Source: a virus
Length of the DNA: 27,146 nt
Strand: one strand, 5' to 3'
Virus record (IMG/VR): IMGVR_UViG_3300045284_000148
Location: 1-27,146 of that record
The translations under genes and the position numbers were made by a program. The notes under the pieces were generated by a model that worked only from the letters and a program-made list of their open reading frames with translations, did not search any database and was not told where the DNA came from. Of this stretch, positions 2,824-23,003 are shown in pieces (the stretch's first letter is position 1; each line of letters begins with the position of its first letter).

Positions 2824-3504
2824 ATGAGAACAGCCACCCTCCCTGTATCGGGCGAGCTCAGCTTGCGCGTCACGCGCGGGTGGCCGTCCATCCACGAACA
2901 GAACACCCTCCGCCACGCGCTCCCCTCGTTGAAGCTCGATGCTGAGGTTGCTGCGTGGCGCCGCAGCAACCTCCGGAACGTGATGCGCGGCTACTGGCGC
3001 CACTCGATCGCCGACAAACTCGGCGTCGGGCATTTCACCGGCGCGCTGTTCCTGACGGTGTTCCGCGGTGACGGCACCGTCCTCCCGCTCGGGCTCGCCT
3101 CGATGCGGGTCGTCACGACGGCGGGTTGCACGTTCATCCGTGACGACTTCAACGCCGGTTCGACGGACATCACGACGATGAAGTTCCACGGGTTCGGCAC
3201 CGGCACCACCGCCGAAGCCACAGGTGACACAGCGCTCGTCACCGAGTTGACGACGCAGTACGCGACGGATTCCACCAGGCCGACTGGGTCGCAGACGACG
3301 AACGGCACAACCGTGTACCGCACCATCGCAACACTCACCCCCGACTCGGGTGGCACGATCGCGGTCACCGAGCACGGCATCTTCTCCGCGTCATCGTCGG
3401 GAACCCTGCTCGACCGCTCCAAGTTCTCAGCGGTCAACCTCGACTCGACGGCCGGCGACTCGCTCCAGGCGACCTATGACTTCACGATCACGGCGGGCGG
3501 CTGA
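2824..3504 (+). CDS. hypothetical phage protein, probable virion-associated beta-rich protein
   Basis: This is a 226-residue protein. An upstream GTG at 2800 is in frame, but it sits against the T-run of the terminator. The ATG at 2824 has a good Shine-Dalgarno, GAAAGGA at 2813-2819, so it is preferred. The N-terminal third is basic and Trp/Arg-rich. From about residue 110 there is a pattern familiar from phage structural clusters: FHGFGTGTTAEATGDTALV, then a TRPTGSQ segment and Thr/Ser/Gly-rich strands ending in DSLQATYDFT. The function of this kind of protein is not established. Membership of a late structural cluster suggests a virion component. Confidence 0.7.
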   Translation: MRTATLPVSGELSLRVTRGWPSIHEQNTLRHALPSLKLDAEVAAWRRSNLRNVMRGYWRHSIADKLGVGHFTGALFLTVFRGDGTVLPLGLASMRVVTTAGCTFIRDDFNAGSTDITTMKFHGFGTGTTAEATGDTALVTELTTQYATDSTRPTGSQTTNGTTVYRTIATLTPDSGGTIAVTEHGIFSASSSGTLLDRSKFSAVNLDSTAGDSLQATYDFTITAGG

Positions 3505-3505
3505 G

Positions 3506-4792
3506 ATGAGGAAACACGCTTCGTGGCCGCGTCTCGCGGCCACGATCGGTGTACTCGCAACCGCGCTCGTTCTTGGGCTGATCGCATCCGGTCTCGTCAC
3601 CGGCGCCACCGGAGTCACCGTCCTCTCTCCTGGCACGTACTCCGTCCCGGCACAGAGCACAATCACACGGACCGTTACGCCAACTCTCCCCGGCTCGACG
3701 GTCACAACGACCGTGCCTGGGCCGACGACTACGGTCACCACGACGGTCACGCAGCCGACGACGACCACCACACCGACCACGACGACAACACCAACGACCA
3801 CCACGACGCCGACTACGACCACGACCCCGGCGGGCAACTGCTCCTCCCCGTGGGCACCGTCCTTCAAGTCCCCTGGCGCGTGCGGCTACCCGGACCCGGC
3901 CTTTGGGAACGTCGGGGTGCCACCAGGCACGACGCTCACGCCTCACGCTGCGTTCTCGACGAGCAGCATGTGCTCCGCGAACGGTCCCTGCACCATCTCC
4001 GGCCTAGACGTGACGGGGACGTCACCGGCGAACTCGCAGATGGTCACAGTTGACACCAACAACGTCACGTTCCTCAACGACAGGTTCACCGCCACAAGCG
4101 GTGGTTGCGGCCCAGCGAACCACTGCTCGAACACCCTGGTGTTCCAGCAAAAAGGCAAGAGCGGACTCACGTTCTCCCACGTCGAACTGTCAAGCGCACC
4201 TGCGATCACTGTGGAGCACGCCGTCCGCGAGTACGGAGGCGGTCTCGCGATGGACCACGTCTACCAGCACGGCGACGTCGACGCGATCTGCTGGTGCCCT
4301 GAGGCGAACATCAGCGACAGCTACTCAATCGTGCATCTCGCCATGGCGGACGACCACCTCGAGAACGTCTACTCCGAAAGCTCGAACCTCACGATTACCC
4401 ACAGCGTCCTGCTGAACTCCGAGGTCAACTACACGCAGGGCGCGGTGTTCGCGCAGACCGCGGCTGGTGCGTCGATCCCGTGCGCGAACCACATCACCCT
4501 GACGAACGATCTGTTCGCCGGTGGTGGCGACACCCTCGACCTGTGTTCGCATTCCACAAGTGTCGGGACGGCGAAACTCACCGTCCAGAACAACCGGTTC
4601 GCACGGTGCCTCACGACGCCCGTCGGCCCGGACGGGGGCGGCCAGTGGCACTGCTCCGGCGGCCCAGATCAGTTCGGGTACGCACCATTCAGCGGTGTCT
4701 ACGGCCCCGACTACGACATGTACTGCGGGTCGAGCCAGACGACGTGGACGGGGAACAAGTGGGACGACAACGGCTCCACGGTGAACTGCTAA
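3506..4792 (+). CDS. membrane-anchored, Thr-rich-linker, beta-helix-like surface protein
   Basis: This is a 428-residue protein. The frame is open upstream to 3350 inside the previous gene, but ATG 3506 directly follows that gene's stop and gives a proper signal-anchor: basic MRKHASWPR, then a hydrophobic segment at residues about 10-33. A Thr/Pro-rich low-complexity linker (about 52-108) contains four PTTTTT units. The remaining 320 residues are Asn/Thr/Gly/Cys-rich with recurring short strands such as NVTFLNDRF, GLTFSHVEL, NLTITHSVLL and LTVQNNRF, the pattern of a right-handed parallel beta-helix like pectate-lyase or tail-spike folds. There are many Cys, suggesting an oxidising, extracellular location. 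It could be a secreted or displayed glycan-binding or depolymerising protein, but no catalytic residues are identified. Confidence 0.75.
   Translation: MRKHASWPRLAATIGVLATALVLGLIASGLVTGATGVTVLSPGTYSVPAQSTITRTVTPTLPGSTVTTTVPGPTTTVTTTVTQPTTTTTPTTTTTPTTTTTPTTTTTPAGNCSSPWAPSFKSPGACGYPDPAFGNVGVPPGTTLTPHAAFSTSSMCSANGPCTISGLDVTGTSPANSQMVTVDTNNVTFLNDRFTATSGGCGPANHCSNTLVFQQKGKSGLTFSHVELSSAPAITVEHAVREYGGGLAMDHVYQHGDVDAICWCPEANISDSYSIVHLAMADDHLENVYSESSNLTITHSVLLNSEVNYTQGAVFAQTAAGASIPCANHITLTNDLFAGGGDTLDLCSHSTSVGTAKLTVQNNRFARCLTTPVGPDGGGQWHCSGGPDQFGYAPFSGVYGPDYDMYCGSSQTTWTGNKWDDNGSTVNC
3755..3826 (+). repeat. four tandem 18-base repeats encoding PTTTTT
   Basis: Four in-frame units of one Pro and five Thr codons lie at residues 84-107 of the surface protein. 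The surrounding stretch (about 3660-3830) is also Thr/Pro/Val-rich. At protein level this is a stiff, extended linker of the type often O-glycosylated in secreted proteins. That glycosylation happens here is inference. Confidence 0.9.
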
Positions 4793-5320
4793 ATGGCTAC
4801 CGGCACAGTTCTTCTCCCAACCACCGCCGCGGTTCTGCCGGACGGGTCAACGTCGAACCTCGCACCAGGGATGAGCCGGAGGCAGGGCACACAGACGGGC
4901 GCCAAGGTTCATTTCATCACACTGGACTTCGACGGTGCCGGGAACCTCGAGCTGTGCTTCTTCGGGTTCCGTCTCCCCGCGAACTACGCATCAGCGGCTG
5001 CGCTGAAGCTCCAGTGGCAGGCGAACGCAACCGCGAACGCCGTGAAGTGGCAAGCGAAGGTCGGTGCCGTGACACCCGCCGATGCCGACACCGTGCTCGA
5101 GCACGCGTTCGCGACAGCCGCGACGGTCACCACGAACGTGAACACCACCGAAGCACGCAGGCTCACCGAATCGTCGATCGACCTCTCTGGCGTGTTCGAC
5201 TCCGGCGCCCCGGGTGACTACATCACGATCCAGTTGCTCCGCGACTCCGCAGACGCCGCTGACACAGCAACCGTCGACGCCGAGCTCCTCACCGCGTCGT
5301 TCGAGTACACCACCACGTAA
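4793..5320 (+). CDS. hypothetical virion-type protein, beta-sandwich-like
   Basis: This is a 175-residue protein starting at ATG 4793, the base after the preceding stop. After an N-terminal strand (GTVLLPTTAAVLPDG) there is an alternating hydrophobic pattern with LKLQWQANATANAVKWQAKV in the middle and a beta-rich end (GDYITIQLLRDS, LTASFEYTT). Ala and Thr are abundant and charge is low. This type of small beta protein is common in structural regions of environmental phages, perhaps as decoration or fibre components. The precise role is unknown. It is coupled to the surface-protein gene upstream and to the 81-residue gene downstream. Confidence 0.7.
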   Translation: MATGTVLLPTTAAVLPDGSTSNLAPGMSRRQGTQTGAKVHFITLDFDGAGNLELCFFGFRLPANYASAAALKLQWQANATANAVKWQAKVGAVTPADADTVLEHAFATAATVTTNVNTTEARRLTESSIDLSGVFDSGAPGDYITIQLLRDSADAADTATVDAELLTASFEYTTT

Positions 5321-5329
5321 GGGGGACGG

Positions 5330-5575
5330 ATGGCTCTCGACTCCACGCAGACGCACGACGTTCTCCGCACCCTCGTCATCACAGACGGTACCGCGGCGCT
5401 GAACAACATCGCCCGTGCCGACATGGCCGCCGCGATCGCCGCGGTCGATACGTGGGCAACGGCGAACGCGACCGCGTACAACACGGCTCTACCGGATCCG
5501 TTCAAGTCGACCGCGACCGCAGCGCAGAAAGCAGCGTTGCTCGCCTATGTGTGCTTGAAGCGAGCGGGGAAGTAA
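5330..5575 (+). CDS. small hypothetical phage protein
   Basis: This is an 81-residue, Ala/Thr-rich, mostly helical protein. The ATG at 5330 follows an AAGGGGG Shine-Dalgarno at 5319-5325. Recognisable features are the central AAIAAVDTWA helix and the C-terminal AAQKAALLAYVCLKRAG segment, a pattern seen in small genes of phage structural clusters whose function is not known. It lies 3 bases before the next start. Confidence 0.7.
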   Translation: MALDSTQTHDVLRTLVITDGTAALNNIARADMAAAIAAVDTWATANATAYNTALPDPFKSTATAAQKAALLAYVCLKRAGK

Positions 5576-5578
5576 GCA

Positions 5579-7057
5579 TTGGCTAGGACTTTCACTAGGG
5601 CGAGCGCCCATTACATCCAGACCGCCATGGGGAACTGGGGCGCGTTTGGCGGCTCGACGATCGCCGTTATCTGCAAGAAAGCATCCGACCCGGCCGCGTT
5701 CATGTTCCTCGCAGGCGTCGGTGAGGTAACCGACAACCACGACTGGTACATCGGGATCCTCGATGACAAAACGCTCGACCTCTGGAACGGCGCCGTCGAT
5801 AGCAACTCCACGTTCACGGTGTCAGCGTCCGAGGGATGGGTGCTGCTCGCGGCGACCAAGACGTCTGGCACCACGACGGTCCGGCTCCACAAGTACGTGT
5901 ACTCCACGAACACTTGGACGCACCAGAACACCGCAGCGGGAACCTCAGCGGACCAGGCGACCTCGGGGACGATGAACGCGTCGATCGGGTCGTCGCTCGC
6001 CAGCGGCACCGTCAGCGGCTCATTCGACGGCGACATCGCTGTTGTCGGGAAATGGAACGTCGTTCTCGCCGACAACCAACTCGAGTCGCTCAGCACGTCC
6101 CTGAACGCATGGTGGCAAGCACCACCAGCCGTGCTCTTCACCCTCGACCAGAGCGCCACAGGACAACTCGTCCGTGACTTGACCGGTGGTGGCGCGAACC
6201 AATCAGCGATCGTCGGCACAACTGTCTCCACCAGTTCGCTCCCGGTGTTCTCGTACGGGTGGTTCCCGACGTTGGTTCACGCCGTGGGTGGGGCTATCGC
6301 GAACACGATCAGCCTGTCCGGTGCCACGACACCGACGGGTCTGCTGATCAAGCAGGCAGCGAAATTTTTCACGGGCGCGACGACACCGACGGGTGCTCTC
6401 GCCAAGCAGGACGCGAAACTCTTGACGGGCGCGACAACACCCACGGGGGCGCTCACCAAACAGGCTGGGAAGCATCTCACGGGTGCGACGACACCGACCG
6501 GCGCACTTGTCCGGGCGTGCTCGAAGTTCGTCACAGGTGCTGTCACTCCGACCGGGACGCTGATCAAGCAGATATCGAAGACGCTCGTGGGGAGCATCAC
6601 CCCTGCCGGTGCGCTCGCGGTGATCCGCGCGATCCTGCTCGCGCTCGGGGGTGCGATCACCCCCGCCGGGACGCTCGTGAAGCAGACAAGCAAGACGCTC
6701 ACAGGTGCGGTAGGGCCATCGGGTGCGCTCGCGAAGGCATGCGCCCGCGCGATGAGCGGAACCATCACACCCGCAGGCGCGCTCACGAAAACCGCCGTGA
6801 AGCAACTCGCTGGCGCATTCACACCCGTCGGCGGACTCGTCAAGAACATCGGGAAGCGTCTCGCCGGTGCGCTCGGACTCAGCGGGGCGCTCTCAACGCA
6901 GTCCAGCAGCGGCGGGCCGACCGCACCCGGTTACGTCACCCTCAGCGCCACGTTGAAATCAGCGGTGGCGTTCCAGGTGATCTCAGTCGCCACCGCTGAG
7001 ATCACGGCGCGGCTCGCCGACGACGTCCAGATCACCGCGCTCCTCAGAGACGCCTAA
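5579..7057 (+). CDS. LamG-like (concanavalin-like) protein with eleven TPTGAL repeats
   Basis: This is a 492-residue protein. The TTG at 5579 is chosen because GGGGAAG lies about 6 bases upstream and because the N-terminus ARTFTRASAHYIQ matches how LamG/concanavalin-like domains begin. Residues 1 to about 220 form that jelly-roll-like domain, usually a carbohydrate- or surface-binding module in phage fibres and decoration proteins. Residues 247-441 hold eleven repeats of about 18 residues with consensus GAxTPTGALxKxxxKxL. A short beta-rich tail follows (442-492). It is probably an extended virion appendage, with the lectin-like head exposed and the repeats acting as a spacer. Ligand and location on the particle are not shown by the sequence. 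Confidence 0.8.
   Translation: MARTFTRASAHYIQTAMGNWGAFGGSTIAVICKKASDPAAFMFLAGVGEVTDNHDWYIGILDDKTLDLWNGAVDSNSTFTVSASEGWVLLAATKTSGTTTVRLHKYVYSTNTWTHQNTAAGTSADQATSGTMNASIGSSLASGTVSGSFDGDIAVVGKWNVVLADNQLESLSTSLNAWWQAPPAVLFTLDQSATGQLVRDLTGGGANQSAIVGTTVSTSSLPVFSYGWFPTLVHAVGGAIANTISLSGATTPTGLLIKQAAKFFTGATTPTGALAKQDAKLLTGATTPTGALTKQAGKHLTGATTPTGALVRACSKFVTGAVTPTGTLIKQISKTLVGSITPAGALAVIRAILLALGGAITPAGTLVKQTSKTLTGAVGPSGALAKACARAMSGTITPAGALTKTAVKQLAGAFTPVGGLVKNIGKRLAGALGLSGALSTQSSSGGPTAPGYVTLSATLKSAVAFQVISVATAEITARLADDVQITALLRDA
6317..6901 (+). repeat. eleven 54-base tandem coding repeats (TPTGAL type)
   Basis: An in-frame tandem array of 18-codon units lies inside the LamG-like gene. The first four copies are close to identical at the core GATTPTGAL. 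Copies 5-11 drift (GSITPAGAL, GAVGPSGAL, GALGLSGAL), and copy 6 has two extra codons. The gradient suggests recent expansion at the 5' end. The conserved Thr-Pro-Thr and Lys positions would recur on one face of a regular structure. Confidence 0.9.
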
Positions 7058-11275: not shown

Positions 11276-11491
11276 ATGCGAGCAGACACGCAACCAGATA
11301 CGAGAGTTCTCGTCGCCACCGAATCTTTCGCGAAACGGTGGCAGGGCGCTGACTACTCGTTCCAGGCCGGTGTCACGCGCGTCCGCGAAGGACACCCGAT
11401 GCTGAAAGGCATCGAGCACTTGTTCGAGCCGATCAGCGCGGACTTCGAGTTTGAGCAGGCAACTGCCGCTCCGGGTGAGAAGCGCCGATGA
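11276..11491 (+). CDS. small conserved-looking protein after the capsid gene
   Basis: This is a 71-residue protein. The open frame runs back to 11210 through the hairpin, but ATG 11276 has GAGGGAG at 11261-11267 with good spacing. Visible features are the start RVLVATESFAKRW, then GVTRVREGHPMLKGIEHLF and an acidic end. The pattern VTRVR..HP.L.....LFEP recurs in small phage proteins directly after the capsid gene, sometimes proposed as head-associated. I cannot assign a function. Its stop overlaps the GT4 start (ATGA), linking capsid and glycosylation genes. Confidence 0.7.
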   Translation: MRADTQPDTRVLVATESFAKRWQGADYSFQAGVTRVREGHPMLKGIEHLFEPISADFEFEQATAAPGEKRR

Positions 11492-12708
11492 AGCTGCTCT
11501 GGCACTCCGTCTCGCCGCTGTGCCCAACAGGGTACGGGAACCAGACAGCGCTTTTCGCGCCCAGGCTGAACCAGATTGAGGAGTACGACGTCGCTGTGTC
11601 GAGCGGCTACGGGCTCGCTGGCACACCCGTTGATTACCGGGGTGTCCGCGTGTATCCCGGCTTCGACTGGAACCAACAGGTACTGACGTGGCGCGACTAC
11701 CACGCCAACAACGAACCGTGTTTGACGGTGACGCTGATGGACGTATGGCCGCTCGACCACACCGTCTTTCGCCACGTGAACGACACCGGTGGCCTCGCGT
11801 GCTGGGTGCCGGTCGACCACAAGCCGGTCACTCCCGGCGTGGAGATGTTCCTGCGCGCCACACAGGCGCGGCCGATCGCCATGTCGCGGTTCGGTGAGGA
11901 GCAGCTTCGCGTGAAGGGATTCGACCCGTTGTATGTCCCCCATGGTGTCGACACCGAACTGTTCGAGCCGTTCGAAGATCGTGCCGCAGCGCGCCGCTAC
12001 TTCGGGCTCTCAGAGGATGCGTTCATCGTCGGGATGGTCGCGAACAACGAAGGAGTCGCACCTCCGAGGAAGGCTTTCCCGCAAGCGCTGATGGCGTTCA
12101 AAGACTTCTATGACCAGCACCCCGAAGCGCTCCTCTATCTCCATTGCGAGATGACAGGGAACACGGGGATGCGGCAGGGAGTCGACCTCCGCATGCTCGC
12201 GTCACAGTTCGAGATCCCCGACACAGCGATCGTCGCGACGAACCCGTCACGGATGGTCACAGGGGTTCCGCAGTCCGAGCTCGCCGCGCTGTACTCAAGC
12301 ATGGACGTGCTGCTGAACCCAGCTTATGGGGAAGGGTTCGGTGTGCCGATCATCGAAGCGCAGGCGTGCGGCACACCCGTCATCGTCAGCGATTGGACGG
12401 CGATGCCGGAGCTGTGCGGAGCCGGCTGGAAGGTCGGCGGCCAACCCTGGTACGACTGCCAGCACTACTCCTGGTTCCTCAACCCGAGCGTCGACGGCAT
12501 CGTTGCGGCGCTCGAGCAACTCCACGGGATGCCAGCCGACAAGGTCGAGGAGCTCCGGGCGAACGCTCGATCGTTCGCGTTGCAGTACGACGCCGGCACT
12601 ATCACCGAACAGCATTGGAAGCCGACGCTCGAAGCACTTACCCGTCCGCGGGAGGTTCAGCCGTTGAACCGCGCGATGCGCCGCGCCGCCGCAAAGATCG
12701 CAGCATGA
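11488..12708 (+). CDS. glycosyltransferase, GT-B fold, family 4-like
   Basis: This is a 406-residue protein with two Rossmann-like halves. The N-terminal acceptor half starts KLLWHSVSPLCPTGYGNQT, the type of glycine-rich opening usual in GT4. The C-terminal donor half contains the E-x7-E motif of family 4, Glu282 and Glu290 in GEGFGVPIIEAQACGTPVI, which binds nucleotide-sugar. The linking PHGVDTELFEP is another family landmark. It would transfer a sugar from a nucleotide-sugar donor, in the cytoplasm. It is the first enzyme of a ten-gene cassette and overlaps its neighbours at both ends (ATGA). Acceptor is unknown; phage virion protein is the working inference. Confidence 0.9.
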   Translation: MKLLWHSVSPLCPTGYGNQTALFAPRLNQIEEYDVAVSSGYGLAGTPVDYRGVRVYPGFDWNQQVLTWRDYHANNEPCLTVTLMDVWPLDHTVFRHVNDTGGLACWVPVDHKPVTPGVEMFLRATQARPIAMSRFGEEQLRVKGFDPLYVPHGVDTELFEPFEDRAAARRYFGLSEDAFIVGMVANNEGVAPPRKAFPQALMAFKDFYDQHPEALLYLHCEMTGNTGMRQGVDLRMLASQFEIPDTAIVATNPSRMVTGVPQSELAALYSSMDVLLNPAYGEGFGVPIIEAQACGTPVIVSDWTAMPELCGAGWKVGGQPWYDCQHYSWFLNPSVDGIVAALEQLHGMPADKVEELRANARSFALQYDAGTITEQHWKPTLEALTRPREVQPLNRAMRRAAAKIAA

Positions 12709-12979: not shown

Positions 12980-13698
12980 AGATCGCCGTTCTGTCGCTCA
13001 CGCGTGACCGGCTCGCGTACACACAGCACTGCTTCACCAGCCTCCGCGAGAACGCTGGATGCGCGTTCCACCATTCCGTTCTCGACCAGGGAAGCAACGA
13101 CGGCACCTCCGAATGGCTTCACGGCGAGTTCCAGCCCGACATGCTCGTCATGGCCGGCGAGAACGTCGGGATCAGTTGTGGACTCAACACGCTCATCGAC
13201 GATCTCCCCTGGAACGACTTCGACGTGATCGTGAAGTTCGATAACGATTGCGAGTTGCTCACGCCGAACACGCTCCGCGACATCGCGCTGCTCGTCGACG
13301 AGTACGGGTTGCTCCTCTCACCGCAGATCCACGGACTTAGACAGCCACCCGCGACGATCGGACTTGCGCCGTTGTCGCTCGGCGGCGCGCTTGTGGATGA
13401 GAAGGCGCAGATCGGGGGGATCTTCCTCGCCGCACCCGCCTGGCTGTACGACGACTTCCGCTACTCCGAGGCGAATCCGCTGTGGGGCGGCGACGACGTC
13501 GAGGTCTGCGCCTACTGGCGCGGCCGGGGGATGAAGTGCGGTTATGTGCAAGGCTATGACGCGAACCATTACTTGACGAGCGACGGCCAGTACGAGCATG
13601 ACCGGCCGTACTTCGATCGCAAGGTCGCGGAAATGGCGAAAGCAATGGTTGACGCGGGAATCACGACTGATGAAGCAGTGGCAAAGGTCGCCGCATGA
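12976..13698 (+). CDS. glycosyltransferase family 2-like (GT-A)
   Basis: This is a 240-residue protein. The frame is open back to 12853, but ATG 12976 starts the family pattern MKIAVLSLTRDRLAYTQHC exactly. The GT-A landmarks are the nucleotide-binding LDQGSNDGTSEW, then GENVGISCGLNTLI, and a DxD metal site Asp89-Asn-Asp91 in KFDNDCEL. An acceptor-side WGGDDVEVCAYWRGRG follows, with the acidic pair typical of the catalytic region. It uses a nucleotide-sugar donor to extend a glycan. It is flanked by ATGA overlaps on both sides and is one of four GT2-like genes in the cassette. Confidence 0.88.
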   Translation: MKIAVLSLTRDRLAYTQHCFTSLRENAGCAFHHSVLDQGSNDGTSEWLHGEFQPDMLVMAGENVGISCGLNTLIDDLPWNDFDVIVKFDNDCELLTPNTLRDIALLVDEYGLLLSPQIHGLRQPPATIGLAPLSLGGALVDEKAQIGGIFLAAPAWLYDDFRYSEANPLWGGDDVEVCAYWRGRGMKCGYVQGYDANHYLTSDGQYEHDRPYFDRKVAEMAKAMVDAGITTDEAVAKVAA

Positions 13699-14213
13699 CC
13701 GAAATGCTCCAAGTGATGTCGGAGTTCGATCAGCTCGCCGAGATTTACCGGACGCATGCGCCGCGTCGCGTGCTCGAGATAGGTGTGTACATGGGCGGCA
13801 CCCTCCGCACGTGGCTCGATGGGCCACAGATCGTGGTGGCTGTCGACAACCTGCACCTCAACAGGGACGCTTACCCCGCATGGACGGATATCGGTGCGGA
13901 ACTCATCGTCATTCAGGGCGTCTCTCAGGACTCGAACACGATCGCGCGGATTCGTGAGCACGCACCGTATGACTTCGCGTTCATCGACGCCGACCACGGC
14001 TACGGCTCCGTCAAAGCGGACGCCGACACCGTCCTGCCGCTCATGGCACCGGGTGGGCTGCTCGCGTTCCACGACCTCGTCAGCGACACCGGCGCTGTGT
14101 ACGGGCCTGGGATGGTCGTGAACGAACTGGAGGCCGCGGGCTATTCGGTGGAGCGGTTCATCGACCTTGAGCCTTCCCCCGTCGCGCACGGCATCGGCCT
14201 CATCAGGCTGTGA
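13695..14213 (+). CDS. class I SAM-dependent methyltransferase
   Basis: This is a 172-residue Rossmann-fold protein. Motif I is VLEIGVYMGGTL (Glu28, with the glycine loop), motif II is AVDNLHL with Asp51, and the post-core motif DFAFIDADHGYGSVKAD at about 93-109 is characteristic of the Methyltransf_24 group that includes O-methyltransferases and sugar or macrocin-type methyltransferases. GGLLAFHDL provides the next strand. It would transfer a methyl group from S-adenosylmethionine. Within a glycan cassette an O-methyl-sugar product is the reasonable inference; a protein or lipid acceptor cannot be excluded. Confidence 0.85.
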   Translation: MTEMLQVMSEFDQLAEIYRTHAPRRVLEIGVYMGGTLRTWLDGPQIVVAVDNLHLNRDAYPAWTDIGAELIVIQGVSQDSNTIARIREHAPYDFAFIDADHGYGSVKADADTVLPLMAPGGLLAFHDLVSDTGAVYGPGMVVNELEAAGYSVERFIDLEPSPVAHGIGLIRL

Positions 14214-16886: not shown

Positions 16887-17494
16887 GCGACTACATCACC
16901 TCGGATCAGCTCAAAGCCACCATTGAGATCGTCGACGAAACATATGCGGACGCTGATATCGCTACGGCGATCAGCGCCGCGAGCCGCGTCATCGACGCTT
17001 ACAAGAACACGCGGTTCTACCCGACGCAGGAGACCCGGTATTACACCCCGGATCCGTGCCGGTACGACCTCCCGATCGATGATCTCTCCACGAGCACTGG
17101 TTCCACGATCACCATCGACGCGGACGGCGACGGTGTGTACGAGACAACGTGGGCGCTCAACACCGACTACTACCTCGATCCGCCGAACGCCGCACTGGAG
17201 GGGCGGCCGTTCAACAGGGTGACTATCCGCCGGAACTCGGGTCGCACATGGCCGGGGTGGCAGCGCGCAGTCCGCGTCGACGGTGAGTTCGGTTGGGCCA
17301 CCGCGGTGCCACAGGTGACGCAAGCCTGCTCCATCCTCGCCAGCCGGTATCTGCGCCGCGCTAGGGAGACGCCCTATGGGATCCTGACCGTCACAGGGGA
17401 CGCCATCACAGCCGCGAGGTTGGGACGGATCGACCCGGATGTGGCGTTCCTGCTCGACAACATCCCTGGTGACCCAGCCCAGTTGATCGCGTGA
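16883..17494 (+). CDS. head-tail connector (adaptor) protein, HK97 gp6-like
   Basis: This is a 203-residue protein. The N-terminus, with helices TSDQLKATIEI, DADIATAISAASRVIDAYKNTRF, is the usual opening of phage head-tail adaptors that bind under the portal. A beta-rich insertion (residues 50-125, with DGDGVYETTW) is followed by FGWATAVPQVTQACSILASRYLRRAR, the conserved closing helix of the family. It lies between the capsid side and the tail genes, at the expected place if the sugar cassette is ignored. Overlaps of 4 bases on both sides (GTGA). Confidence 0.8.
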   Translation: MSDYITSDQLKATIEIVDETYADADIATAISAASRVIDAYKNTRFYPTQETRYYTPDPCRYDLPIDDLSTSTGSTITIDADGDGVYETTWALNTDYYLDPPNAALEGRPFNRVTIRRNSGRTWPGWQRAVRVDGEFGWATAVPQVTQACSILASRYLRRARETPYGILTVTGDAITAARLGRIDPDVAFLLDNIPGDPAQLIA

Positions 17495-17904
17495 GCTTCG
17501 AGATCGCCGACATCCGCGCCGGTCTTGCCGCGAACCTCGCCACCGTTGCTGAGTCACGCCAGGTGAGCGCATACCGGATGGCGTCACCGACACCGCCGTC
17601 ACTGGTTGTTGTTGGGTTCGAGGAGATCACACCTATCACGTTCGGTCGTGGCGGGTTCGAGATCCCGATGCTCATCCAAGGACTCGCAGGGAAGAGCACC
17701 GACAAGGGCGCTCAGATCAGGTTGGACAAGTGGCTTTCACCGAACGGTGACCTGAACGTGTGGGCCGCCATCGAATCAGACCAATCACTCGGCGGGACTG
17801 TTTCCGCCGTGACTGTGCTCCGCTGCGACGGATCACAGTTCATCCAGCTCGAGAACGGCACCGAGGTGTTGGGCTCGACCTGGCACGTACGGATCGACCT
17901 CTAA
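17491..17904 (+). CDS. probable tail terminator / neck protein
   Basis: This is a 137-residue protein. It opens with IADIRAGLAANLATVAESRQVSAY and continues with PTPPSLVVVGFEEI, GRGGFEIPMLIQGL, DKWLSPNGDLNVWAAIESDQSLGG and ends with GTEVLGSTWHVRI. This alpha/beta pattern (helix, strands, short helix, strands) is common in actinophage proteins located just before the major tail protein and is usually taken as the tail terminator that caps the tube and joins it to the head. A head-closure role is the alternative. GTG start overlapping the connector stop. Confidence 0.65.
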   Translation: MSFEIADIRAGLAANLATVAESRQVSAYRMASPTPPSLVVVGFEEITPITFGRGGFEIPMLIQGLAGKSTDKGAQIRLDKWLSPNGDLNVWAAIESDQSLGGTVSAVTVLRCDGSQFIQLENGTEVLGSTWHVRIDL

Positions 17905-17975: not shown

Positions 17976-18413
17976 ATGGCAGGGAAGTTCGCCGCCACCG
18001 ATGTCAGCATCGTCTTGGACGCGCTCGACATCTCCGATTACTGCTTCAGCGTCGACGTCCCGGACACCAAAGACCAGATCGACGTGTCCGGGTTCAACCC
18101 GACGAGCTCCAGGGAGTTCCTCCCTGGCACCCGTGACCAGACCGTCACCCTCGGCGTGCTCCAGGTGTTCGACAGCACCGGCGGGTTCGCCGCGATCCAC
18201 ACGAAGCTGAACACCCTGTACACCGCGAACAGCGCGTTCGTGTTCACGATCAAGCCGACCAGCGGCTCCGTGTCGGGGACGAACCCGAAGTACTCGGGTA
18301 CCGCGCAGATGTACGAGTACGACGGCCTCAACGCGCAGTTGAACGCTCGTGCCGAGATCACCGTCACGCTGAAGCCCGCCAACGGCGCCGTCTGGGCGTG
18401 GGCAACGGCTTAA
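17976..18413 (+). CDS. major tail protein (tail tube)
   Basis: This is a 145-residue, beta-rich, Thr/Ser/Asn-rich protein at the place of the tail tube protein. ATG 17976 has AAGGGGGAG at 17961-17969, the strongest ribosome site in the tail region, consistent with high expression. It contains strands typical of tube monomers: DVSIVLDALDISDYC, SVDVPDTKDQIDVSGF, QTVTLGVLQVFDS, FVFTIKPTSGS, YSGTAQMYEYDGL and the closing AEITVTLKPANGAVWAW. It stacks as rings around the tape measure protein. Neighbours (tail terminator before, chaperones and tape measure after) support the call. Confidence 0.85.
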   Translation: MAGKFAATDVSIVLDALDISDYCFSVDVPDTKDQIDVSGFNPTSSREFLPGTRDQTVTLGVLQVFDSTGGFAAIHTKLNTLYTANSAFVFTIKPTSGSVSGTNPKYSGTAQMYEYDGLNAQLNARAEITVTLKPANGAVWAWATA

Positions 18414-18414
18414 G

Positions 18415-18780
18415 GTGGCGAAGGAAGTCCTCGCGGTCAAGGGATACCGGGAACTCCTCCGCGCCACCGACCGATCGGGGAAAGCATCGAAGAAGGAAGT
18501 CAGAACGGCGCTGGCCGACGCCGGAGAGATCGTCCGCGCGGACGGCCAGCGCCTGTTCACCAAGTACGACGCGAGATCAGCCGCGGGGTTCACCGTGAGC
18601 GTCCGCGCCACCGGTGTGTCCATCCGGCAGCGGCTCCGCAAAACCACGGGTCAGCACCCCGAATACGGCGCGTTGCAGATGCGAACCCTGCTGAAGGCTC
18701 GCGCCGAGAACACCGAGAACGTCGAGAAAGCGTTCGAGAAAGCCATCGACCGCATCGCTGACACATTCGACGAACACTAA
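18415..18780 (+). CDS. HK97 gp10-like tail completion/minor protein
   Basis: This is a 121-residue protein starting at GTG 18415, one base after the tail protein stop. Helices VKGYRELLRATDRS and KKEVRTALADAGEIVRADGQRLFTKYD are followed by SAAGFTVSVRATGVSIRQRL and a PEYGALQM motif, then a C-terminal helix with KAFEKAIDRIADTFD. This is the usual pattern of the HK97 gp10-like family, proteins of the head-tail junction or tail completion. Its location after, not before, the major tail protein is slightly unusual for gp10 itself but common in actinophages. Confidence 0.7.
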   Translation: MAKEVLAVKGYRELLRATDRSGKASKKEVRTALADAGEIVRADGQRLFTKYDARSAAGFTVSVRATGVSIRQRLRKTTGQHPEYGALQMRTLLKARAENTENVEKAFEKAIDRIADTFDEH

Positions 18781-18797: not shown

Positions 18798-19223
18798 ATG
18801 ACAGACACAGGCAAGGACGGGTTCGAGTACAAGTCCCCCGACGACACCGCGGCGACGTTCTACACATGGTCGGTCTCCACCGGGGCGAAAGACCTGATGC
18901 TGATCGACAGGTTCACCGGGATGCCCGTCAGCGAGTTCTTCGAGCAGATCGAGGACAGCTTCGACCGTGGCCGCGCACCGATCCTGTTCGCGCTCATGGC
19001 GACGTCGATTCGTGCGAAGAACCCCGAATGGTCACTTGAGCGGATCGTCCGGCTCGTCCAGAACCTCGACCTCACCGAAGTGAAGTTCATCGACGGTGAC
19101 GCAACTGAGGATGAGCTCCCCCCTCCCTCGGGCGGACAACAGGGGCCGCCCAGCGAAGACGGCTCAACCTCACCGTCAGACGAGTCGAAACCATCTGCGA
19201 CCCGTCGGGCACGGTCGGCATAA
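18798..19223 (+). CDS. tail assembly chaperone, short (G-type) product
   Basis: This is a 141-residue protein with ATG 18798 preceded by GGAGAGG at 18781-18787. It is acidic, with helices SEFFEQIEDSFDRGRAPILFALMATSIR and LERIVRLVQNLDLTEVKFID. From residue 104 it becomes Pro/Ser/Gly/Glu-rich and disordered, the region where the frameshift occurs. It is located immediately before the tape measure gene, as for lambda G and its relatives, which coat the tape measure protein during tail assembly. It is the non-shifted product of the frameshift pair. Confidence 0.85.
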   Translation: MTDTGKDGFEYKSPDDTAATFYTWSVSTGAKDLMLIDRFTGMPVSEFFEQIEDSFDRGRAPILFALMATSIRAKNPEWSLERIVRLVQNLDLTEVKFIDGDATEDELPPPSGGQQGPPSEDGSTSPSDESKPSATRRARSA

Positions 19224-19360
19224 CCGACTTCTGCCGTGAACCCACCCTGATGTGGTCACCGTGGATGGCGTACCACTACCGGCTGCTGAAGAACGACATC
19301 GTGACTCACAACATCACCCTTGACGAGATCGTCTCGATGTGGGACGGGATAAAGAGCTGA
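18798..19360 (+). CDS. tail assembly chaperone, -1 frameshift (GT-type) fusion
   Basis: A proportion of ribosomes are expected to slip back one base at 19118-19124 and continue from 19124 to the TGA at 19358-19360. The predicted product is 187 residues: the first 109 of the short form, then 78 residues in the -1 frame. The new part looks like real protein, with VETICDPSGTVG, TDFCREPTLMWSPWM, HYRLLKNDIVTHNITLDE and the closing IVSMWDGIKS. The -1 frame has a stop at 19112-19114 and the original frame stops at 19221-19223, so slippage must lie between them. The T-like part would contact the tape measure or tube proteins. Confidence 0.82.
19118..19151 (+). promoter_or_regulatory. programmed -1 ribosomal frameshift signal
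   Basis: The slippery heptamer C CCC CCT is at 19118-19124 in the reading frame of the short chaperone (codons CCC CCT). Both tRNAs can re-pair after slipping to CCC CCC. After a 5-base spacer, a hairpin pairs GGGCGG (19130-19135) with CCGCCC (19146-19151) around a 10-base loop. Spacing and all-GC stem match classic -1 stimulators. No other heptamer of the X XXY YYZ form exists between the two limiting stop codons. Confidence 0.8.
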
Positions 19361-19361
19361 G

Positions 19362-22300
19362 TTGGCGCGCCGGATCGAAGTAGACATCATCGGTGACGCA
19401 AGCTCGCTGCAACGGTCGTTCAAGGCTGCCGATGCGTCCGCGAAAGAGTTCAACGGTGTCATAGGTTCCGTCCGTGTGGGTCTCGGCGCGCTCGTGAAGA
19501 GCTTCGTCGTGATCGAAGTCCTCGACAAGGCGTTCGAGGGTCTCACCGAAACGTTCCGGGCGGGGATCGACGAGTTCAAAGAAACGACGCAGATCCAGGC
19601 TCAGACAGCGGCGGCGATCAAATCAACCGGGGACATCTCCGGTGTCACCGCGAAGCAGATCCATGGGTTGTCGCTCGAGTTGTCGAACCTGTCCGGTCAG
19701 TCCGACGAGTCGGTCCAGGCCGCCGAGAACGTCCTGTTGTCGTTCACGAACATCCGAAACTCGCTCGGGAAGAACAACGACGTCTTTACCCAGGCCACGA
19801 AGGCCGTCGTTGACTTCTCGGCGCGCACCGGCCGGGACGCACCCGCCGCAGCGGTGCTCTTGGGGAAGGCGTTGCAGGACCCGGCGAAGCGCGTCGGGAT
19901 CCTCGCACGGGCCGGGGTGGTGCTGTCGCAGTCGCAGACAGCGGTGCTGAAGTCGGTTGAGAAGAACCAGGGGATCCTGGCGGCGCAGAAGATCCTGCTC
20001 GCCGACCTCGCAACACGGTTCCAGGGAGCCGCCGCGGCAGCCGGGAAAACACTGCCGGGTGCGCTCAACATTCTGAAGGAACGGTTCCGTGACCTCGCCG
20101 GTGAAGGCATCGCGAAGGTCCAAGGGCCATTGACGTCGGCAGCGAACGCCCTCGCAGGGTTCGTGGTGAAACTCACCGACGCGAAAGGCGCGGCCGCGAA
20201 GTTCAAGATCGCCGTCGACGGGCTCAAGTCACTCGGGAAGTCGCTGACGAAAGCGATCGGGGACGCTGTCGCGCAGATCAACTGGGACCAAATCTGGGCG
20301 CGCGCGAAGGACATCGGGAAGGGCTTGCAGCAACGGCTCGCGCAGATCGACTTCAAAGGGATCGGCCAGAAGATCGGTGACGGCATCGCACAGGCCATCA
20401 AGGTTGCTGTCCCGGCCGTGGCTGAGCTCGCGAACAAGATCACCTCGGTGATCTCCTCGATCGACTGGGAGAAGGTTGGGCAAACGGTGGGGCCGGGGTT
20501 GGCGACGGCGATCGTGACTGCGTTCGCGACGTTGACCGACGTGACGTTCTGGGCGCGCCACTGGGATCTCGCCCTGTCGGTCGCAGCGGTCGCGTTCAGC
20601 GGGCCGCTTGGGAAGCTCGGCTCGAAACTCCTCGAGCCGTTCGCACGGGTTGGTGTGAGGCTCGCGGAATCGTTTGCGCTCGCTATCGCTTCAACGGTTG
20701 AGAAGATCGCGCCGGAGATCGCTGACCCCGTTCTCAACGTTCTGTTGAGGTTGCCAGCCCAGGTCGCAAGGATCGTCTCAGGATTGGCGGCACCGTTCGT
20801 TTCGTTGTTCAACCGGTTGGGCCGGATCGCGACGTTCTCTATCAAGGTTCTCGGGATCAAGTTCGCGCTCGACCAGATCGCCGACTTCTTCAGGAAAGCG
20901 AAGCAGGTGCTCGCGAAGCCGATCGCTGTGGTGCTCGACGTCACGGGCGTCTCCCAGGCACTGAGCCAACTCAAGTTGGCGTTCCACGTCATCATCCAGA
21001 CGATCACCGGGGATTTCTCCGGACTGTGGAAAACACTTGAGAAGCAGGCGATCAACGCTGCGCTGGCGATCGTTGAGCCGTTCACGCACCTACCGAAGAT
21101 CCTCGGCGGCGGGCCGTTCCAGGAGATCAAAGCCGAGCTCCAGAAACAACTCGACGGCATGAAGACATCAGCGGCGACGAGTGGTAATCAGATCGGTCAG
21201 GCGCTTGGAGACGGGATCTCTCAGGGATTTGCGTCGAAGGCTGGTGTCCTCGCGCAGCAGGAGAAGTCGCTGATCCCGACGACGGCGATAGTTCAAGCGA
21301 AAACAGCGGCGAAGCAGACCCGGCAGCCAGCCGCGGCATCTCCCTTGAAGCCGGTCGCGAGCGATCTTCTCGGTGCACCCACCCAGCCGAAGGGAATCAC
21401 CGCCGACCAGCGCAACACATTCTTCGATAGCAGCATCGGCCGGTTGCTCGACCAAGCACAGGACGGCAAGATCCAGCAGCAGATCGCGAAGCTCAAAGCA
21501 ATCGGCGGGCTCATCACGAAGCGGATCGCCGCGACGAAAGACGTTACGCGCAGGCTCACGCTCGAGCAGCAACTCCTCGACAACGTGACACGGCCGATCC
21601 AGGCGTTGGAAGCAACCGAGAAGTCGGATGCGCTCCAGGCATCAGACGATGCGTTCCAGAAGCTTGTCGATTCGCTCCAGTTGAACGTTGACCGTGCCTC
21701 GGTGACGAAGGGAACCGCCGACGACATCGCGGCCGTGAAAGCCCTCATGGACGGCATCAAGACCAGGATCAAAGCCGTCGGTGCGACCTCCGACCTTGAG
21801 CAGCAGCTACTCGCCGCCGAACAGAACCTGAAGGACGTCAACTCTCAACGCGCCCAAAACGTCCTTGATTCGCTCCAACTGAATGTCGACCGTGCAGCCG
21901 TGACGAAGAGCACCAGTGACGACATCTCGACGCTCACCGCGTTGAAGAACGGCATCAAAGCCAGGATCAAAGCGGTCGGTGAAACATCGGACCTGGAGCA
22001 GCAACTCCTCGCGGTAACGCAGCAGATGGCGACCGTGAGGTCGCAGGTCGCGCAGGGGATCCTCGACGCGCTGAACCTGAAACTGACGAGGGCGCAAGCC
22101 ACTCCGAGCCAGCAGGATGATCTCAGTGTGCTCGATGCGCTTCAGAAAACGTTGAAGAAACAGATCAAGGCTGTTGGCGCGACGAACGATCTTGAACAGC
22201 AACTCCTCGCGGCCACGCAGCAGATCAAGGGTGTGCGCGACCAGGTGCGACAGGGGATCCTCGACACGCTCAACTTCGCCGTCACGAAAGCGTCAGCGAC

Positions 22301-23003
22301 GAAGAGCCAACAGGACGACCTGGCGGCGCTCAACAACCTTCAAGCCACGCTGAAGAAACAGATCCGCGCTGAGGGCGCGACGCTTGACCTTCAGCAGCAG
22401 TTGTTCGACGTGGAGCAGAAACGGAAGGACGCCCTCGCGCAGGTTCGCGCGAACGCCGTCACCGCCAGGAACGCAGCGCAGTTCAAGACGCTCGGACTTA
22501 CCGCCACGGGTGACGACCGGATCGCCGGTGTGAAAGCGTTGAAGGCTGAGCTCGGGAACGTCGGGAAGGCGCTCGAGGGTTCGTTCCTCGACACGTCGAA
22601 GACGAAGAGCCTGATCCAGCACATCCGTGGGGTTCTCTCCGGTGGCCTCGGCGCTATCAGCGTGGACGTGCGGTCGAAGGTGAAGAGCATCCTCGACGGC
22701 ATCGATCAGCAACTCAAAGACCACGCGACACAGAAAACGGTGTTCCAGCATCTCTCGACTCAGAAGCTCCTCGGCGGTTTGGATCTGTCCCCTGATCAGT
22801 TGCGCGCCGCACGGGAGCGCCTCGCCACCGTCGGGTTGGGCGGCACCGTCCCGCAGAAAACGGCTGCGTTCAGTCTCGCAACAGGCGGGGTCACGATCAA
22901 CGGTGGGGTCCACATGCACGGTGTCCAGGACATGCGTGGCCTCGAGGATCAGCTAGCGAAGCGCGCCGCACGGAGGCCGCAGGTCAGGCGCGGCGCCAGG
23001 TGA
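19362..23003 (+). CDS. tail tape measure protein
   Basis: This 1213-residue protein is the longest in the window and is located after the chaperones. The TTG start at 19362 follows the T-frame stop by one base. The N-terminus RRIEVDIIGDASSLQRSFKAA and the 20-260 region (GQSDESVQAAENVLLSF, TGRDAPAAAVLLGKALQDP) match the conserved head of siphovirus tape measure proteins. The central part has hydrophobic stretches near residues 360-500. Residues about 690-1060 are coiled-coil-rich and contain four 66-residue repeats (769-1032). It sets tail length; at roughly 1.5 angstroms per residue a tail of about 180 nm is expected. Its stop overlaps the next GTG. Confidence 0.93.
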   Translation: MARRIEVDIIGDASSLQRSFKAADASAKEFNGVIGSVRVGLGALVKSFVVIEVLDKAFEGLTETFRAGIDEFKETTQIQAQTAAAIKSTGDISGVTAKQIHGLSLELSNLSGQSDESVQAAENVLLSFTNIRNSLGKNNDVFTQATKAVVDFSARTGRDAPAAAVLLGKALQDPAKRVGILARAGVVLSQSQTAVLKSVEKNQGILAAQKILLADLATRFQGAAAAAGKTLPGALNILKERFRDLAGEGIAKVQGPLTSAANALAGFVVKLTDAKGAAAKFKIAVDGLKSLGKSLTKAIGDAVAQINWDQIWARAKDIGKGLQQRLAQIDFKGIGQKIGDGIAQAIKVAVPAVAELANKITSVISSIDWEKVGQTVGPGLATAIVTAFATLTDVTFWARHWDLALSVAAVAFSGPLGKLGSKLLEPFARVGVRLAESFALAIASTVEKIAPEIADPVLNVLLRLPAQVARIVSGLAAPFVSLFNRLGRIATFSIKVLGIKFALDQIADFFRKAKQVLAKPIAVVLDVTGVSQALSQLKLAFHVIIQTITGDFSGLWKTLEKQAINAALAIVEPFTHLPKILGGGPFQEIKAELQKQLDGMKTSAATSGNQIGQALGDGISQGFASKAGVLAQQEKSLIPTTAIVQAKTAAKQTRQPAAASPLKPVASDLLGAPTQPKGITADQRNTFFDSSIGRLLDQAQDGKIQQQIAKLKAIGGLITKRIAATKDVTRRLTLEQQLLDNVTRPIQALEATEKSDALQASDDAFQKLVDSLQLNVDRASVTKGTADDIAAVKALMDGIKTRIKAVGATSDLEQQLLAAEQNLKDVNSQRAQNVLDSLQLNVDRAAVTKSTSDDISTLTALKNGIKARIKAVGETSDLEQQLLAVTQQMATVRSQVAQGILDALNLKLTRAQATPSQQDDLSVLDALQKTLKKQIKAVGATNDLEQQLLAATQQIKGVRDQVRQGILDTLNFAVTKASATKSQQDDLAALNNLQATLKKQIRAEGATLDLQQQLFDVEQKRKDALAQVRANAVTARNAAQFKTLGLTATGDDRIAGVKALKAELGNVGKALEGSFLDTSKTKSLIQHIRGVLSGGLGAISVDVRSKVKSILDGIDQQLKDHATQKTVFQHLSTQKLLGGLDLSPDQLRAARERLATVGLGGTVPQKTAAFSLATGGVTINGGVHMHGVQDMRGLEDQLAKRAARRPQVRRGAR
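21666..22457 (+). repeat. four 198-base tandem repeats inside the tape measure gene
   Basis: Four contiguous 66-codon units start at 21666, 21864, 22062 and 22260. All begin with (L/V)D(S/A/T)L(Q/N) and contain a central KxxIKAVG-like segment, then DLEQQLL, and end with a helix of Gln/Val/Arg residues. The first two are closest to one another, as are the last two in part. A degenerate fifth copy may precede them, since a shorter TLEQQLLDN occurs just upstream. This looks like modular lengthening of the coiled-coil part. Confidence 0.85.

Follow-up and report, generated by a model that had tools for sequence, protein, structure and literature searches.

The lambda tail chaperone slip site is GGGAAAG. 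As described in the available text of PMC5009743, the lambda gpG/gpGT system has two overlapping ORFs before the tape measure gene, and a -1 shift near the end of the first ORF gives a short and a long product. The locus described here likewise has two overlapping ORFs before the tape measure gene. The SEA-PHAGES actinobacteriophages are high-GC phages, as is that of the window; their annotated tail chaperone frameshifts use X_XXY_YYZ sites, and in the accessible sections of PMC10885494 every nucleotide is seen at each of X, Y and Z. Signals of the dnaX type are composed of an upstream Shine-Dalgarno-like element, a slip site and a downstream hairpin, according to the available portion of PMC3711429.

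The stretch of DNA analysed here, called the window, comprises positions 1 to 27,146 of the 27,146-base virus record IMGVR_UViG_3300045284_000148. In all likelihood it carries two overlapping genes that encode the tail assembly chaperones of a long-tailed phage and are expressed through programmed -1 frameshifting by the ribosome.

Gene order and elements of the overlap

The window contains genes for terminase, portal, prohead protease, major head protein, head-tail adaptor, tail terminator, major tail protein and tape measure. On the + strand, the tail terminator gene (17491-17904; phrog_17840 tail terminator, E 1.2e-12) and the major tail protein gene (17976-18413; phrog_4574 major tail protein, E 9.2e-10) are followed by a 121-amino-acid ORF with no function assigned (18415-18780), the frame-0 ORF of the putative tail assembly chaperone (18798-19223; 141 codons, ATG start, a gpG-like product) and the tape measure gene (19362-23003, TTG start; phrog_27166 tail length tape measure protein, E 2.5e-14), whose start region is similar to that of relatives. 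The chaperone ORF is placed between the major tail protein and tape measure genes, and the 121-amino-acid ORF is the only one to intervene, on the major-tail side. A PHROG match to this intervening ORF was not found; it has counterparts in two relatives, L003 and L004 (21 and 42% identity). The window also has, in the interval from the major head gene to the tail genes, a glycosyltransferase-like gene (11488-12708, phrog_2170) and a DNA-methyltransferase-like gene (13695-14213, phrog_2675). In L003, two ORFs (3290-4519 and 4516-5169) are glycosyltransferase-like by eye and lie directly upstream of an ORF (5135-5587) that occupies the tail protein's place.

All elements of the overlap are on the + strand. 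The -1 frame is open at 19115-19360, following a TGA at 19112-19114 that confines the slip to positions after it, and frame 0 stops at TAA 19221-19223. The putative slippery heptamer, C_CCC_CCT in frame 0, is located at 19118-19124 (conserved unit C_CCY at 19118-19121) and is the sole strict X_XXY_YYZ heptamer between these two stops, as a preliminary description of the window had stated. The -1-frame extension (19118-19360) has 78 residues after the slip (19124-19357) and a TGA at 19358-19360; it ends right before the tape measure gene, with its TTG at 19362, which had also been noted. Downstream of the heptamer, a 5-nt spacer (19125-19129) leads to a putative stimulatory hairpin (19130-19151) of 6 bp with a 10-nt loop, whose arms are GGGCGG (19130-19135) and CCGCCC (19146-19151). 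Upstream is a Shine-Dalgarno-like GAGGATGAG (19107-19115), weak in the window, which belongs to an element found across the family some 9 nt ahead of the slip site. A second frame-0 stop, a TGA at 19248-19250 (position read from the sequence), overlaps the ATG of CTGATGTGG; it lies 27 nt after the used TAA and corresponds to the frame-0 end in most relatives. The predicted products are a frame-0 protein of 141 residues and a fusion of 187 residues (109 + 78). Each position originally given for the heptamer, spacer, stem arms, both stops and open -1 frame was correct when checked, and the size given for the fusion agrees with ours.

AlphaFold models were built from 33-sequence alignments. For the frame-0 product, block means of pLDDT were 86-98 at residues 11-100 and 51-60 after residue 100; frame-0 residues up to about 100 are conserved in relatives. 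The extension was modelled as all helical with a mean pLDDT of 92.5. With a folded core, a low-pLDDT tail and a folded extension, the shift would therefore replace a tail that is probably disordered by a folded domain. No chaperone family of Pfam or PHROG matched the frame-0 part or the extension, so the chaperone name rests on place, size and architecture. Pfam matches to Croc_4, GEN1_C and TrbC involved only 1-2 of 33 members each and were judged chance. Profile searches of solved structures gave no credible match, and in Foldseek and VIA-align neither the frame-0 nor the extension model credibly resembled a known fold. The best viral match was an unnamed protein (E 4.9e-5). The top Foldseek PDB match for the window's frame-0 model was ORF12 of lactococcal phage p2 (3d8l), which we take to be a tail chaperone; the match was not significant (E 1.1, TM 0.14/0.21, VIA-align Z 2.2).

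Relatives and the -1-frame extension

Several scans of IMG/VR yielded 47 related contigs; together with the window these make 48 contigs, one locus per contig, which fall into 36 clusters at 90% nucleotide identity. The contigs of L005 and L017 end shortly past the slip site, and that of L031 is truncated inside the extension; these three are included in slip-site counts and left out of extension measurements (n = 33 or 34 clusters). Relative to the chaperone gene, the extension occupies the -1 frame in all 36 clusters, and the seven contigs found via the extension alone all have the same chaperone upstream. Relatives in which chaperone and extension are split genes, named in the preliminary description as an observation that would speak against frameshifting, were looked for and found in 0 of 36 clusters. 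Conservation extends over the whole of the extension, in which several R, P, M and W residues hardly vary. From the slip to 100 nt downstream, the open -1 frame contains no ATG, GTG or TTG in 33 of 33 complete clusters; within 60 nt upstream of the slip, a -1-frame start codon is present in only one of these (L092, at -42). At this level comparison establishes the architecture, its conservation and an extension without a start. The programmed -1 frameshift first proposed for the window is thus strongly supported by the 47 related contigs, in which the extension is conserved, always in the -1 frame, devoid of a start for its first half and never a split gene.

Among 118 extension pairs at least 50% identical, which are not independent and give descriptive figures, differences per -1 codon position were 0.325, 0.304 and 0.395 in the overlap and 0.271, 0.259 and 0.403 after the overlap. 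The most variable position in the overlap is the third of the -1 frame, which is the second of frame 0, and the -1 frame is therefore better kept than frame 0.

Searches of cultured phage genomes (nucleotide and tblastn) with the region, the frame-0 protein, the extension and one ORF elsewhere in the window gave nothing useful; a Klebsiella phage match at E 0.6 was disregarded. No relative turned up in either of two scans of 84,980 prokaryote genomes, nor in IMG/VR scans with the window's extension alone and with its major tail protein.

The overlap might instead be expressed by termination and re-initiation, in which ribosomes end frame 0 at TGA and begin again at the ATG that overlaps it (TGATG), translating a separate short peptide in the -1 frame. 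The frame-0 stop overlaps an ATG in 32 of 34 clusters, a count used in place of an ATG-context measurement in which the Met of the extension's central motif was misplaced in at least L011 and L024. Directly before this ATG the codon is almost always xTG, even though the family prefers CTC for Leu and GTC for Val, and the window retains CTGATG at 19247-19252. However, the product of re-initiation would comprise no more than the extension's second half, while the first half is also conserved and lacks a start codon in 33 of 33 clusters. No Shine-Dalgarno match precedes the stop-overlapping ATG (mean -2.0, compared with -9.0 for the chaperone start), the stop used in the window (TAA) lies 27 nt upstream of the TGA/ATG, and the conserved C_CCY would be left unexplained. 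We regard re-initiation as a very improbable substitute for frameshifting; at the stop-overlapping ATG it could add a minor third product.

The putative C_CCY slip site and its possible stimulatory elements

The homologous Pro codon reads as C_CCY in 36 of 36 clusters (22 C_CCC, 14 C_CCT). A strict heptamer is present at the site in 30 clusters, as C_CCC_CCG (18), C_CCC_CCT (2), C_CCC_CCA (2), C_CCT_TTG (5), C_CCT_TTA (1) or A_AAC_CCT (2; L014 and L089). The six clusters without one have C_CCT_CCT (L025, L038, L039), C_CCT_ACG (L077), C_CCT_ACC (L088) or C_CCT_CCG (L103); these bare C_CCT sites were picked by homologous position, which favours the slip reading, and the chance per site is 0.19-0.35. 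As a null, the eight codons around the site were recoded synonymously with the family's own codon usage. Such recoding gave C_CCY in an expected 9.6 clusters (maximum 21 in 20000 simulations) compared with 36 observed, and a strict heptamer in an expected 5.5 clusters compared with 30 observed. Only 40 of 386 other Pro codons occur as C_CCY, and elsewhere in the frame-0 genes of the 36 clusters a strict heptamer was found at 2 of 4813 codon positions. Comparison thus also establishes a constraint on the slip site.

Loss of the heptamer while both frames stay intact had likewise been named as evidence against frameshifting. Such loss does occur, in 6 of 36 clusters, but these keep C_CCT at the same place, and therefore the conserved unit is C_CCY and not the strict heptamer. 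That the slip site is kept while its letters change supports programmed -1 frameshifting. The remark that a poly-C site is uncommon may hold in general; within the family, however, no other form is as frequent (22 of 36). Resolution is poor in the tree built for the frame-0 domain: the best version of this tree needs 12 changes of slip-site class, of which the well-supported branches force few, and repeated turnover of slip-site class is suggested. In L005 the strict heptamers A_AAC_CCC and C_CCC_CCG overlap at 6294-6303, one codon apart. This double heptamer may represent a transitional state from one type of site to another.

In E. coli, C_CC.C_CC.A, C_CC.C_CC.G and C_CC.U_UU.G shift at more than 0.10% without stimulators, and the tetramers C_CC.U and C_CC.C also shift given a strong pseudoknot, as reported in the available part of PMC4066793. 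On the data of that part, the heptamers and, more weakly, bare C_CCT therefore have in vivo precedent. Text searches covering the main text of openly accessible phage papers did not find CCCCCCT, CCCCCCG or CCCCCCA named as a slip site. The putative C-based slip site of the family is unusual but conserved.

The preliminary description had omitted an upstream Shine-Dalgarno-like element, which is strong across the family about 9 nt before the slip. The anti-Shine-Dalgarno match is strongest where its 3' end lies 9 nt upstream of the heptamer, with a family mean of -7.2 kcal/mol, and energies 60 to 24 nt upstream of the heptamer are between -0.3 and -1.9. The best match 5-14 nt upstream has a mean of -9.31; synonymous recodings give -7.84, and none of 1000 reaches so low a value (z -3.77). 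At six upstream control positions no lowered energy relative to synonymous recodings was seen. In strength the element is on a par with the match at the start of the chaperone gene (-9.17 vs -8.95), and a 5-base Shine-Dalgarno core is present in 24 of 36 clusters. Its existence at family level is established by these comparisons; one part of the signal reflects the protein, in which an acidic segment uses many GAG codons, and another part goes beyond the protein. The window's own element (-6.1, null mean -6.3) is not above expectation.

Folding of the 60 nt right after the site had a mean z of -0.82 (se 0.18, n 34), and mean z at eight other offsets was between -0.39 and +0.04. The bias across the family is modest and the downstream structures differ in shape between clusters. 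For the matching hairpin claimed at the window's site, the stem arms are present as sequence, but its stability is no better than that of shuffles: the 32-nt segment has a folding energy of -12.7 kcal/mol (z -0.51), a value equalled or bettered by 62 of 200 dinucleotide shuffles, and z for longer segments is -0.04 to +0.68. The shape of the hairpin is not shared. In the alignment of relatives, the letters of the heptamer vary at a fixed place and no stem shape is common to the clusters.

A slip of RNA polymerase on the C run, giving mRNAs with a base gained or lost, would be an alternative to a slip of the ribosome. The window's site is a homopolymer of six Cs, and some bacterial genes use such slippage on runs of 9 A or T, or on T5C5 with an adjacent inverted repeat, in the examples of the available text of PMC5009743. 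However, 14 of 36 clusters have only C_CCT and no long run, and the upstream Shine-Dalgarno-like signal suits ribosomes and not polymerase; we consider transcriptional slippage still less probable than re-initiation. A shift in the +1 direction, as for E. coli Pro codon pairs, was considered since CCC/U-C sequences promote +1 slippage in that host (PMC8129111, in the part available), but across the 33 complete clusters the length of the +1 frame beyond the site varies widely (0-190 codons, with three clusters at 0) while the -1 reading is steady (70-89 codons, or 70 to 88 when counted after the P codon) and its protein conserved, and a +1 shift at CCC/CCU-C is hardly credible. An artefactual indel in the C run of a single gene, as could arise from metagenomic assembly of a homopolymer, is negligibly probable because the same -1 arrangement, which already contradicts an error, is found in 36 of 36 clusters from many metagenomes, non-homopolymer sites included, with frame 0 mostly ending at one conserved stop.

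Proposed mechanism and comparison with known systems

Programmed -1 ribosomal frameshifting, very probably of the gpG/gpGT chaperone type, would proceed as follows in the window. Most ribosomes would read frame 0 to 19223 and make the 141-residue chaperone with its probably disordered tail. A minority, with prolyl-tRNA on C-preceded Pro codons, would slip back one base on C_CCC_CCT at 19118-19124 and continue in the -1 frame to 19360, giving the 187-residue fusion with a helical domain as its C-terminal 78 residues. Across the family, the upstream Shine-Dalgarno-like element and structure on the downstream side probably aid the slip. If lambda gpG/gpGT is taken as the model, the short form may coat the tape measure protein and the long form may recruit the major tail protein. 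We infer the slippage itself, its rate and the roles of both proteins.

A more specific scheme is put forward tentatively and with considerable doubt. A single prolyl-tRNA might slip from C_CCY to CCC under a Shine-Dalgarno-like pull, with the tandem heptamer optional. Sites would then interconvert (C_CCC_CCN, C_CCU_UUN, A_AAC_CCU, bare C_CCU) around the invariant Pro codon, and the stop-fused ATG may add a third product.

The classic phage mechanism is already known; what is added is a putative chaperone family named by none of the libraries searched, along with 36 clusters for comparison, across which the slip site varies in letters and not in place. With this set, the rules of C-based -1 slippage and the role of a putative Shine-Dalgarno-like stimulator in tail chaperone genes are therefore testable with reporters. 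The interest of the locus lies in a C-based site conserved in a diverse uncultured set, in slip-site types interchanging around one C_CCY, and in the putative upstream stimulator. For annotators, such extensions can go unnoticed in gene-by-gene calling.

Compared with lambda gpG/gpGT, the window's family has no detectable sequence homology and a putative slip site that is C-based. A difference from the SEA-PHAGES phages is that tblastn with the window's frame-0 protein, extension and one other ORF gave no usable match in a cultured phage. With respect to dnaX-type signals, as presented in the available portion of PMC3711429, the family would slip on Pro codons and not on A_AAA_AAG, the shape of its downstream structure is not conserved and the window's upstream element is weak; at the family level, the putative signal would have the same three parts in the same order.
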